A stretch of DNA of 64,000 nucleotides, taken from Anaerolinea sp. (lineage in GTDB: Bacteria; Chloroflexota; Anaerolineae; Anaerolineales; Anaerolineaceae). Under the pieces are notes generated by a model that saw only the letters and a program-made list of their open reading frames with translations, was not told the origin of the DNA and did not search any database. Below, piece by piece: positions 12,897 to 22,714 of this stretch (position 1 is its first letter; every line of letters begins with the position of its first letter). A program made the translations under genes and the position numbers. The stretch spans positions 124,001 through 188,000 of the forward strand of contig DYEC01000004.1 in NCBI GenBank assembly GCA_020725865.1, read 5' to 3'.

Positions 12897-14285
12897 TTAT
12901 CCCCCCATGCATTCGTGTGCAGCTATGGACATGATTTCGCCAAGCGTAGGAAAGCCGTGACAGACTCTTTCCATCTCCTCCAGTGTATGACCGTTGGCGG
13001 TAGCAAAGATGATTTCCCCAAGCAGTTCTTGAACATTGGCTCCAATCATGTGTGTGCCTAAAATCAGATGGGTATCAGCATCGGCGACTAGTTTCAACCA
13101 GCCAGTCGTATCTCCCTGGCATATTGCCATGCTGTTACAAGAGAAAGGTATCCGCGCAGTTTTGACACGATACCCCCGCTGATGAGCCATTTCGGCAGTT
13201 ATTCCAAAAGATGCAATTTGAGGGTGGCAATAGGTGATCTTGGGCATGTTTTCGTAGTTAAGCAACGCTGGATTATGTCCGGCAATCTTTTCTGCAACAT
13301 ACCGTCCCATTTCACGGCCGGCAGCAGCCAGCATCAATTTTCCATTGACGTCGCCAATCGCCCAGATGCCCGGAATGCTAGTTTGCATGTGTTCATCGGT
13401 TTCGATCACGCCATTGTCTCCCAGTTTTACTCCTATCTCTTCCAGTCCGAGCCCTTCGCTGTTATGTTTGAAACTGACTGCTTCCAACACCCGGGCAACA
13501 CGAACCGTTATTTTGTCTTGGCGTCCTTGAATATAGACTTCCGCATGGTCTGTAAAGCGTTGGATGGATTCAATGCACGCGTTAGTTATGACCCGAATAC
13601 CTCGAGTCATAAACGCTTTTTCTAGCTCCATGCCGATTTCCTGATCTTCGTATGGCACAAGGTGAGACAACATTTCGACAATGGTTACTTTAACGCCATA
13701 AGCGTTCCAGAATGAGGCAAATTCAACTCCCAACGCACCACCGCCGACAATCAGTACTGACTCGGGCTTCGTTTCCTCGAGGATAGCGTGGCGGTAATCC
13801 ATTACGACCCTGCCATCTGTTTCGATTCCTGGAACTTGCATGGGTGTAGCGCCCGTAGCAATCACAATGTGATCAGTCATAAATTGGACAGGATAATTTT
13901 CGCGGGTTATTACCTCAACTGTATTTTTGTTCACTACTCTGGCAATCCCCGAAAGAAAGTCCACACCGCTTTGCTGTAACTTACTTGTTATTTGGTCGGA
14001 CAGAGTCTTTGCCACCTGACGACTGCGCAGAATGGCAGCCTTGTAATCCAGTTCAAGATTGGCTGCCGAAAAGCCGAATTGCCTGCCCGAATTTCCTAAT
14101 GTCCAAGCAATTTCGGCATTCTTCAAAAGGGCTTTTGTTGGCACAGCGCCCATGTTTACACAGGTGCCGCCCGCGGTGTCTTTTTCGACAATCAAGACTT
14201 TCAAGCCAAGTTTAGCGCTACGTAGCGCAGCTTCCACTCCTGAGGGTCCTGAACCGACAATGATAAGGTTGTAATTGTTGTTCAT
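12897..14285 (-). CDS. Dihydrolipoamide dehydrogenase-like flavoprotein lacking the redox disulfide
   Basis: A 462-residue FAD/NAD(P) oxidoreductase of the pyridine-nucleotide disulfide family. The FAD-binding GSGPSG lies at 11-16, a second GGGALGVEFA Rossmann motif mid-protein, and AIGDVNG in the FAD tail. The redox site reads GGTCVNMGAVP: Cys42 is kept but the partner is Ala47. The C-terminal catalytic His-Pro-Thr is Phe445-Pro-Thr, with Glu450 kept. Classical lipoamide or glutathione reduction is therefore unlikely; SthA-type transhydrogenases also lack the second Cys. ATG 14285 is chosen since GGAG lies six bases ahead. Divergent from the Ser/Thr kinase; no 2-oxoacid dehydrogenase genes are near. 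Confidence 0.85.
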   Translation of the reverse strand: MNNNYNLIIVGSGPSGVEAALRSAKLGLKVLIVEKDTAGGTCVNMGAVPTKALLKNAEIAWTLGNSGRQFGFSAANLELDYKAAILRSRQVAKTLSDQITSKLQQSGVDFLSGIARVVNKNTVEVITRENYPVQFMTDHIVIATGATPMQVPGIETDGRVVMDYRHAILEETKPESVLIVGGGALGVEFASFWNAYGVKVTIVEMLSHLVPYEDQEIGMELEKAFMTRGIRVITNACIESIQRFTDHAEVYIQGRQDKITVRVARVLEAVSFKHNSEGLGLEEIGVKLGDNGVIETDEHMQTSIPGIWAIGDVNGKLMLAAAGREMGRYVAEKIAGHNPALLNYENMPKITYCHPQIASFGITAEMAHQRGYRVKTARIPFSCNSMAICQGDTTGWLKLVADADTHLILGTHMIGANVQELLGEIIFATANGHTLEEMERVCHGFPTLGEIMSIAAHECMGG

Positions 14286-15927: not shown

Positions 15928-16935
15928 TTACTTGACCTGGTCAATCAGAAGGGTTTTACGAACAGGGTCAGCAATTAGATAGAATACATTGAAGGTCTCT
16001 AGCACATTTCCCTTGCGGGTGACATAGCGGAGCGTAACATACACCGGTGCTGGATTTGCATTCCAGTCCTGAAGGTATGCCGTAAGCACTTCTACTTTTT
16101 CGATGGTGTTCCACCAATTTGAATAAACCACAAATGGATCATTTCCGGCGATGCTACAACAGCTTGATTGAAACTTGGGGGATAACATTGTCCAGGCACG
16201 CTCGTATTTACGGTTGTTGAGTGTATTATAGTAATCACGGATGAACTGTTCCGGGTTGGGATAGGCATCTCGTTGCCATGGTGTCAGGGTAGGTGTCGCT
16301 TGTGGGATGGTTTCAAGAGATGATAACGTAATAATTGCCACTGGAGATGGCGTTTGAGCGAGCCGGATGCCGGGAAAAGGTGGGGTCAGTGTCAGTTTTG
16401 CCAGTACGGTTGCTGCTCCTTGAGTGTATAGCATCTGAACAGACTGGGTGATAAAATGATCCGGAGAAGAAAATAACGACGAGCTAATTTGGCTGAAAAC
16501 GAAAACGATGCTGGCAATCAGTATAAATAGCGGGATGACCACCCATATCCACGTAAAGCTTCCGCCCTGAGATTGTTTGTGTACCTGGACCTGGTAAGTG
16601 CCAGCGACGATTTTTGTCCCCGCATTACTGTTAATGAGCAACAGAAAATCCACATAATAGGGTTTGGTTTGCCAGCTCGAGGGTGTTTGTGGCTCAAGAT
16701 GGACAGTGTGTTGACTGCTTTCCCCACTATTTAGACGAAAATTTGTGGGAGAAACTTTGACCCAACTTACCTGGGGAATGATTCTGCCAGCGAGAGTCCC
16801 TGTTCCTGTGTTCGTGATAGCAAGTTGTGCAGTAGGTAATTCAGAGGCCTCAAGTGCTGGATTAAAAATCCCGAAATCCAGGCAATCAGATGATATCTGG
16901 ATTTCTGGGTTAGGAACCGGTTTGTCAGATAACAT
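15928..16935 (-). CDS. Single-TM protein with Ig-like and NTF2-like domains
   Basis: 335 residues. Residues 10-110 form an Ig-like beta domain with the pattern CLDFG...ITNTGTGTLAG...VSPTNFRLNSGE, common beside or within Chloroflexi kinases. A TM helix spans about 130-152. The C-terminal 110 residues starting at PNPEQFIRDYYNTLNNRKYERAW look like an NTF2/SnoaL-type cone domain. No catalytic residues are evident. It converges with the kinase gene, ending 31 bases away; a functional tie is inference only. Confidence 0.65.
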   Translation of the reverse strand: MLSDKPVPNPEIQISSDCLDFGIFNPALEASELPTAQLAITNTGTGTLAGRIIPQVSWVKVSPTNFRLNSGESSQHTVHLEPQTPSSWQTKPYYVDFLLLINSNAGTKIVAGTYQVQVHKQSQGGSFTWIWVVIPLFILIASIVFVFSQISSSLFSSPDHFITQSVQMLYTQGAATVLAKLTLTPPFPGIRLAQTPSPVAIITLSSLETIPQATPTLTPWQRDAYPNPEQFIRDYYNTLNNRKYERAWTMLSPKFQSSCCSIAGNDPFVVYSNWWNTIEKVEVLTAYLQDWNANPAPVYVTLRYVTRKGNVLETFNVFYLIADPVRKTLLIDQVK

Positions 16936-20393: not shown

Positions 20394-20547
20394 GCTGTTC
20401 CCTCCCAAAATATTTTGTGATAAGCATGAACAAATTGTAAGACAAAAAGAAAGGTTTGTATATATTTTGTATAATGTAGTACCTTCTTGAAAAATTTGTG
20501 TTGGTTATTGTTGGAAATTGACGGATTATGCTAAACTTTGAAAGATT

Positions 20548-20572
20548 GTCCGATCGGACGGCTATCTGATAG
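20548..20572. promoter_or_regulatory. Two tandem palindromes ahead of the corrinoid gene
   Basis: GTCCGATCGGAC (20548-20559) is a perfect 12-bp palindrome, followed two bases later by CTATCTGATAG (20562-20572), another perfect dyad. Both lie 35-60 bases before ATG 20607. The layout suggests an operator or leader structure, but no regulator is known for it. Confidence 0.4.
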
Positions 20573-20606
20573 AGCAAGTTCAGTCTTCTATGGAATGAGG
20601 AAAGTT

Positions 20607-21263
20607 ATGGATGAAATTTTGCAGAAAATCATAAGCGCTTTGGATGAGGGGGAAGACGAACAGATCAGCTTGCTGGTACGGCAGGCTCTGGCGATTGGGT
20701 TTGAACCGATGACAATTCTGGAAAATGCTTTGGTGCCGGCTATGACTCGGGTAGGTGAAAAATTTGCCTGTGGTGAATATTTTTTGCCCAACCTGATTGT
20801 CTCGGCGGAGGCAATGAAACAGGCGATGTTTGTTCTTGAACCGGTCATGCGTCAGCGGCAACAGATGCTCAAAAGGGCGGGTGTGGCAGTAATCGGCACG
20901 GTTCAGGGTGATATCCATGAAATTGGCAAAACACTGGTCGGGACGATGCTTTCAGTCAATGGCTTTGAGGTACATGATCTGGGCGTAGATGTCACTCCAG
21001 AAAAGTTTGTGTCGGCAGTTGCGGAGACAGGTGCAAACCTGTTGGGGCTTTCAGCGTTATTAACCACAACGATGACGGTTCAGCGTGATGTGATACAGAA
21101 ACTTGAAGATGCCGGTATTCGCGAACAGGTTAAGGTAATAGTGGGTGGTGCGCCGGTAACACGAGCATGGGCAGATGAGATTGGTGCAGATGGATATGCT
21201 GAGGATGCAATTGGAGCGGTTGAAATAGCGCGCCGACTCCTCGATGTGGAGGGGATAATATGA
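20607..21263 (+). CDS. Corrinoid (B12-binding) methyltransferase protein, MttC/MtbC type
   Basis: 218 residues. An N-terminal helical cap (about 1-85) with ANALVPAM-like text is followed by a cobalamin-binding Rossmann domain with DIHEIGK (the D-x-H-x2-G motif whose His ligates cobalt), SALLTTTM and VGGAP. It carries a methyl group from the neighbouring MttB-family protein to a second methyltransferase. ATG 20607 has GAGG six bases ahead. It overlaps the next gene by ATGA, so the pair is probably made together. Confidence 0.92.
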   Translation: MDEILQKIISALDEGEDEQISLLVRQALAIGFEPMTILENALVPAMTRVGEKFACGEYFLPNLIVSAEAMKQAMFVLEPVMRQRQQMLKRAGVAVIGTVQGDIHEIGKTLVGTMLSVNGFEVHDLGVDVTPEKFVSAVAETGANLLGLSALLTTTMTVQRDVIQKLEDAGIREQVKVIVGGAPVTRAWADEIGADGYAEDAIGAVEIARRLLDVEGII

Positions 21264-22714
21264 GCCAGAAAATTTTGAGCGCGATTGATCCCAAATTACG
21301 GGTCTCGGTGCTGAGTGAGGATGAGATTCGTCGCATTCATACAGCGACGATGGATGTTTTGGAAACGATTGGTGTGCGTTTCCCTTCTGAAAAAGCACTG
21401 AACATTTTGGAAGCTCACGGTGCGCAGGTAGACCGTGAGACCATGATCGCGAAAATCCCGGGTGTTATTGCTGAAGAACATCTGTCAAGAGCGCCTTCAA
21501 CATATACTTTATGTGGGTTGGAGCCAGATTTTGATTTGCCGCTGGATGGGAGTCACAGCTATCTGGGTACAGATGGCTGCGGGGTGGAAATTATAGATGC
21601 TTTCACTCAAGAGAAGCGGCCTTCCACCAAGCGTGATGTTTCTGACGTGGGGCGGGTAGCAGACGCATTGCCAGAAATAGCCTTTCATTGGGTGCCACTT
21701 TCCGCTCAGGATTGTCCGGTGGAGAGCAGGGGACTTCATGAACTGGATGCCATCTGGAATGTAAGTGGCAAACATTTGCAGACCGAGTCTATCGTTAGCG
21801 AGCGCGAAATGCGCTTTGCGGTTGAGATGGCTGCTTTGCTGGCGGGTGGGCGCGAGGCGCTACGCAGGCGGCCAGTGCTGAGCATTATGCAATGTACGAT
21901 CAGCCCGCTTTGTCATGATGCCGGCAGCTTGGAAGCGGCGCTGGTTGCCGCTGAAGCCGGATTGCCGGTGGGGTTTATGACGATGGCTTCCTGCGCTTCT
22001 ACCGGTCCGGCAACGCTGGCGGGCAATCTGGTGGTTGGCAATGTGGAAGTCCTCTCTGCGTTGGTGCTGTTGCAGATGGCTTATCCGGGTTGCCCGGTGT
22101 ATTATGCGGCGGCTCAAACTGCAACTGATTTGCGCACCGGCGCATACACGGGCGGCGGGCCGGCGGATTACCTCTTCGGCGCAGCCACGAATCTTCTGGC
22201 GGATTTTTATCGCCTGCCGCTCTCAATGGGCGCTTTCGCCACTGGCGCCAAACAGCCAGACTGGCAGGCAGGGGTAGATAACAGCCTCTCGGCATTCATG
22301 GCAGCTTCTACAGGAGCGGATATGCTATTGGGAGCAGGATTATTACATGGTTCACGTATCTTTTCGTATGAAGAATTACTGATGGACAGCGAGATTTGGA
22401 ATATGCTTTGCGCGACTTTACGGGGAATTGTAGTGGATGACGAAACGCTGGCTTTGGAAGTGATCCGGCAGGTAGGACCTGGTGGACACTATCTTGCTCA
22501 TCGTCATACATTGAAGCACATGCGGGAACTATGGCAGCCGACCCTGATGGACCGGCGCCCATACAGCGTTTGGGAAGAAAAGCGCGATGGTGCCCGTGAA
22601 TGGGCAAGAGAAAAAGCACAAAAGATTTTGCGCGAGCACCCAGGCAGACCACTGGAGGATGGGTTACGTTCAGAGCTGATGAAAATAATTGCCCTAGCGG
22701 AGCAACTTTCATAA
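21260..22714 (+). CDS. Trimethylamine methyltransferase (MttB) family, non-pyrrolysine
   Basis: 484 residues across the whole MttB superfamily fold, from LSEDEIRRIHTATMDVLETIGVRF through the GADMLLGAGLLHG region. It moves a methyl group from a quaternary or tertiary amine onto the cognate corrinoid protein. The frame has no in-frame amber codon and ends in TAA, so this is the MtgB-like branch without pyrrolysine. Possible substrates include glycine betaine, carnitine or proline betaine; the sequence does not tell. No RamA activase or MtgA/MtbA partner lies in this window. Confidence 0.9.
   Translation: MSQKILSAIDPKLRVSVLSEDEIRRIHTATMDVLETIGVRFPSEKALNILEAHGAQVDRETMIAKIPGVIAEEHLSRAPSTYTLCGLEPDFDLPLDGSHSYLGTDGCGVEIIDAFTQEKRPSTKRDVSDVGRVADALPEIAFHWVPLSAQDCPVESRGLHELDAIWNVSGKHLQTESIVSEREMRFAVEMAALLAGGREALRRRPVLSIMQCTISPLCHDAGSLEAALVAAEAGLPVGFMTMASCASTGPATLAGNLVVGNVEVLSALVLLQMAYPGCPVYYAAAQTATDLRTGAYTGGGPADYLFGAATNLLADFYRLPLSMGAFATGAKQPDWQAGVDNSLSAFMAASTGADMLLGAGLLHGSRIFSYEELLMDSEIWNMLCATLRGIVVDDETLALEVIRQVGPGGHYLAHRHTLKHMRELWQPTLMDRRPYSVWEEKRDGAREWAREKAQKILREHPGRPLEDGLRSELMKIIALAEQLS

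Follow-up and report, generated by a model that had tools for sequence, protein, structure and literature searches.

The window, a 64,000-nucleotide stretch of Anaerolinea sp. DNA, carries on its minus strand (12897-14285) the gene for an altered paralogue of dihydrolipoyl dehydrogenase (Lpd). The open reading frame listed for this locus is a 466-residue frame beginning at a TTG codon; a start at ATG 14285, which has an SD site (GGAGA, 14295-14291) five bases upstream, is favored and yields a product of 462 residues plus a stop. The residue numbering of the first-pass annotation is therefore correct and is kept here. Base composition at each codon position resembles that of the adjacent genes. 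The altered copy does not adjoin genes for E1 or E2, and the same genome encodes a canonical Lpd, 44% identical to the altered one, next to an E2 gene. Further along the window, positions 20538-22714 encode a corrinoid protein adjoining an MttB-family methyltransferase that contains no internal TAG and is, by appearance, of the non-pyrrolysine type.

The active site of the window protein reads GGTC42VNMGA47VPTK51, and its C terminus reads CHGF445PTLGE450. Cys42 (TGT, 14160-14162, minus strand) is the first cysteine of a one-time CxxxxC pair, the second member of which has been replaced by Ala47 (GCT, 14145-14147, minus strand), such that the redox disulfide of Lpd is absent. Phe445 (TTT, 12951-12953, minus strand) takes the place of the catalytic His, leaving the His-Glu pair of the Lpd HPTxxE motif incomplete with only Glu450 present. 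The first-pass annotation had described a protein with one redox Cys and no catalytic His, both changes being directly coded, and the minus-strand frame and its codons agree with that description. A third change, absent from that account, converts the LAH motif to LAA, with Ala321 (GCT, 13323-13325, minus strand) in place of an invariant His. In a comparison with 72 canonical Lpds of the class Anaerolineae, every one has Cys, Cys, and His at the corresponding places.

The remainder of the protein resembles Lpd (E3) in its length and in the elements that bind the two cofactors. The FAD and NAD(H) Rossmann motifs are present, including the GxGxxG motifs for both nucleotides, the Gly311-Asp312 FAD motif, and the Lys51-Glu188 pair near the flavin. 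The NAD-binding stretch (residues 174-210; 13656-13766, minus strand), delimited by alignment with E. coli Lpd and SthA and by column counts, contains a GGGALG motif, and its second strand closes with an acidic residue, Glu204, as in NAD(H)-specific Lpds. The earlier view that both cofactor sites are whole thus holds for every motif compared with canonical Lpds. The best matches of the window protein in the PDB are likewise Lpds (e.g. 3ii4). An AlphaFold2 calculation with the two orthologues returned a mean pLDDT of 37 and the model was discarded; no structural geometry is claimed here.

An orthologue of the altered protein is encoded in the genome of Anaerolineae bacterium isolate Ch10 (G025, record JABLWW01), which belongs to another genus of the same family. 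It is 46-47% identical to the window protein and reads GGIYINMGAIPTK and HARPTLSA in the two active-site regions. Ala47 and Ala321 are both Ala in the orthologue, the Lys51-Glu188 pair is kept, Cys42 is replaced by Tyr (YINMGA), Phe445 by Arg, and Glu450 is lost (RPTLSA). Of the two residues that had been proposed as marks of a clade, Ala is thus common to both lineages and Phe is not. Among 210 columns conserved in canonical Lpds, 107 are kept in both altered proteins, among them all of the FAD and NAD motifs tested, and 53 are changed in both. The two proteins carry the same new residue in 22 of the 53, Ala47 plus 21 other derived residues, whereas a comparison pair, the window protein and E. 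coli Lpd, agrees on the new residue in 8 of 47 jointly changed columns. A quick tree also pairs the two altered Lpds with an SH-aLRT value of 100, with a long-branch warning for both, and the derived residues held in common are stronger evidence than this tree for a single origin. The group so defined consists of two sequences only. The loss of dithiol chemistry with retention of the flavin and NADH sites is well supported, and a second lineage shares it. Identity between the two genomes is 71% for canonical Lpd and 46% for the altered copy, which has thus diverged faster. Judged by canonical Lpd, the two genomes do not pair as nearest relatives.

The altered form is rare. A profile built from the two sequences finds it in 2 of 147 genomes of the family, and no other genome scores near them among those 147, 400 of the order, and 400 of the phylum. 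The two altered Lpds score 929 and 954 bits and the next entries 579 or less; residue-by-residue reading covered the best of these loci, all of which proved canonical, with lower rows judged by score. The highest of them (G969, 579 bits) was considered as a third candidate and rejected, as it has both Cys residues and the His. Scanning 84,980 species for a pattern, a method that depends on exact matches to short motifs and would overlook more divergent relatives, returned the Ch10 copy as its sole match. Separately, a contig from a viral collection (IMGVR_UViG_3300034069_001058) encodes at its very end (L145:15-1415) a canonical Lpd 46% identical to an Anaerolineae Lpd, either as the flank of a provirus or because the contig is misassigned.

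The genomic neighborhood in Ch10 offers a candidate partner. On the same strand as the altered Lpd gene, and one divergent gene away, lie genes for EtfB, EtfA, and an OYE/FadH-type Fe-S flavoenzyme (L035:11272-15231). The genome of the window encodes OYE, EtfA, and EtfB on a different contig (L079:6964-10862), with the gene order unchanged and with identities to the Ch10 proteins of 72, 38, and 34%, respectively, and its EtfA finds its best match within the family in that of Ch10. The OYE occurs in 2 of the 147 family genomes, exactly the two with altered Lpd, a match expected once in 10,731 random draws of two genomes, by a calculation that ignores relatedness and the choice of the test after Ch10 had been seen. 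As a control, an AOR gene adjoining the Ch10 locus is found in 55 of the 147 genomes and is absent from that of the window. The best PDB match of the OYE by sequence is NCR (6qkg), followed by dienoyl-CoA reductase and then trimethylamine dehydrogenase, an enzyme that passes electrons to ETF. Both EtfB proteins have lost the DGDTAQVG-type loop for adenylate or the beta flavin (DGASGLVG and DIMDRSFG in its place), which four of six other EtfBs compared retain, and both have a common insertion of about 25 residues near the C terminus. With an EtfB that lacks the usual loop, a separate NADH-oxidizing flavoprotein could supply the electrons.

Other features of the two loci weigh against a functional link. 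A divergent open reading frame separates the altered Lpd gene from EtfB in Ch10, so that they do not form a joint operon, and the genes are unlinked in the genome of the window. The OYE carries a Pyr_redox_2 domain and may take NADH directly. Two genomes may also have both features because these were inherited or transferred together, with no function in common. A literature search found no papers on a link between Lpd, ETF, and OYE. An uncharacterized conserved protein encoded in the window (15928-16935, minus strand), with no Pfam match and a C-terminal YPNPEQF...AWxML region, has a homologue about 5 kb from the altered Lpd in Ch10. This synteny was given little weight as evidence of linkage because the gene is present in 25 of the 147 family genomes and the window copy is nearer to those of other genomes than to that of Ch10. 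Upstream of the Ch10 locus (L035:559-4691), genes resembling hydrogenase accessory functions were recognized by eye (2Fe-2S ferredoxin-like, NuoE-like, PHP, DRTGG, and CBS-ATPase).

The altered Lpd has probably been repurposed to carry electrons from NADH. By the established chemistry of flavoprotein disulfide reductases, a protein that lacks the disulfide and the His base is not expected to turn over lipoamide, and NADH should still reduce the FAD. Two published relatives without the dithiol, Irc15p and LpdA, behave as this chemistry predicts (PMC6296175). According to the mechanism proposed here, an Lpd gene would have been duplicated and one copy would have lost the disulfide (Cys47 to Ala), the catalytic His, and the His of the LAH motif. 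NADH would reduce FAD by hydride transfer, as the intact NAD and FAD sites suggest, and the reduced flavin would then hand electrons to an acceptor other than a disulfide, most likely the ETF of the co-occurring OYE-EtfA-EtfB unit. We infer that the protein contains FAD, oxidizes NADH, no longer acts on lipoamide, and has the ETF as its partner; the ETF is preferred as acceptor on account of co-occurrence and proximity only. The reading favored here, a dithiol-independent NADH:acceptor flavoprotein (diaphorase) derived from an Lpd duplicate with this ETF as its most likely partner, is accordingly tentative, with a probability of roughly 0.4. A more elaborate proposal is doubtful: that the dithiol-free Lpd, as a dedicated NADH-oxidizing flavoprotein, feeds an ETF lacking the beta nucleotide site, which in turn drives a BaiCD/2-enoate-reductase-like Fe-S flavoenzyme in a new NADH-ETF-OYE system.

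Several other functions have to be weighed against an ETF-linked diaphorase. A conceivable but rather unlikely one is that of an NADH:quinone reductase or general diaphorase, in which the reduced FAD passes electrons to quinone or a small oxidant with no specific link to ETF. The losses in the window protein are of the same kind as those in the two enzymes that exemplify such activity. LpdA (Rv3303c, Mycobacterium tuberculosis), which is missing one Cys and the His-Glu pair, is a quinone reductase with no disulfide reduction (PMC6296175). Irc15p is a neofunctionalized yeast Lpd paralogue that takes electrons from NADH and can pass them to menadione, ferricyanide, and dyes, whereas lipoamide and disulfides are not reduced (PMC6296175); like the window protein, it stems from an Lpd duplicate that lost its dithiol and is kept beside a working Lpd. 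It differs in having lost both Cys residues and kept the His-Glu dyad, where the window protein has lost the His and kept one Cys, and it is a eukaryotic, microtubule-associated protein of separate origin. Against this assignment, the window protein falls far below the cutoff of the model for LpdA-type NAD(P)H-quinone dehydrogenases (NF005883, 269.6 vs 479), and the assignment does not explain why the altered form and the OYE-ETF unit occur in exactly the same genomes. A role as pseudoenzyme, in which bound flavin and NADH would stabilize the protein or serve in sensing and its function would be that of a partner in structure or regulation, such as in a dimer with canonical Lpd, would account for the loss of three catalytic features and for divergence faster than that of the canonical Lpds in the same genomes. 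It is a distinctly unlikely outcome given a protein that retains its NADH and FAD sites residue by residue, with Lys51-Glu188 kept in both orthologues.

The first-pass annotation had also put forward a transhydrogenase and a Cys-sulfenate or persulfide enzyme; of its options, oxidation of NADH with a non-disulfide acceptor survives and these two are disfavored. An SthA-like soluble NAD(P) transhydrogenase of parallel origin is improbable, even though the window protein, 25% identical to SthA, matches it in keeping one Cys, followed by a small second residue, and in having an aromatic residue for the catalytic His and a changed LAH motif (C..A/FPT/LAA vs C..T/YPT/LAS). The parallel belongs to the window protein alone, as the Ch10 orthologue departs further from SthA. 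Soluble transhydrogenases (STH) are defined by CXXXXT and YXXXXE, and mutation of either motif residue in SthA lowers transhydrogenation about 10-fold (PMC9460512). The window protein instead has CXXXXA and FXXXXE, with Ala for Thr and Phe for Tyr, and the orthologue YXXXXA and RXXXXA. Both altered proteins have the NAD-type Glu204 where SthA has Asn-Thr-Arg, a difference that argues for an NAD-only site, as opposed to the binding of both NAD(H) and NADP(H) by STH. Transhydrogenation is made less likely by these motif differences and by Glu204, and the score against the STH model (NF003585) is 273.5 with a cutoff of 465. One-Cys chemistry, in which Cys42 would serve as a sulfenate, persulfide, or CoA-mixed-disulfide center, draws on the presence of that residue in the window protein. 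With Tyr in place of Cys42 in the only orthologue, it becomes very improbable, and the match to the CoA-disulfide reductase model (TIGR03385), limited to residues 105-444 of the 466-residue frame, reaches 102.9 against a cutoff of 578.8. Membership among mercuric reductases (MerA) was rejected as well (TIGR02053, 306.5 vs 454.45). That the gene is an ordinary Lpd marred by sequencing errors, a prospect the first-pass annotation had itself held out as a refutation, or a decaying pseudogene, has nothing in its favor beyond the missing residues and can practically be set aside: the orthologue in an independently assembled genome has both Ala47 and Ala321, the 462-residue frame is intact and preceded by a good SD site, its base composition at each codon position is like that of neighboring genes, and the cofactor motifs are conserved at 46% identity.

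The missing residues bear first on annotation. The window protein scores 437.7 bits against the dihydrolipoyl dehydrogenase equivalog model (TIGR01350; cutoff 408.8) and so passes despite its missing active site; as this model accepts proteins without the redox Cys pair and the catalytic His, automatic annotation will misname them. Neofunctionalized, dithiol-free Lpds are already known, and the altered Lpd adds a variant with a candidate ETF/OYE partner. It is an apparently independent bacterial case, beside Irc15p, LpdA, and SthA, of an Lpd that has lost its dithiol and kept its NADH and FAD sites. The OYE-ETF unit provides a concrete genomic candidate for the partner, by which the acceptor of dithiol-free enzymes becomes testable.
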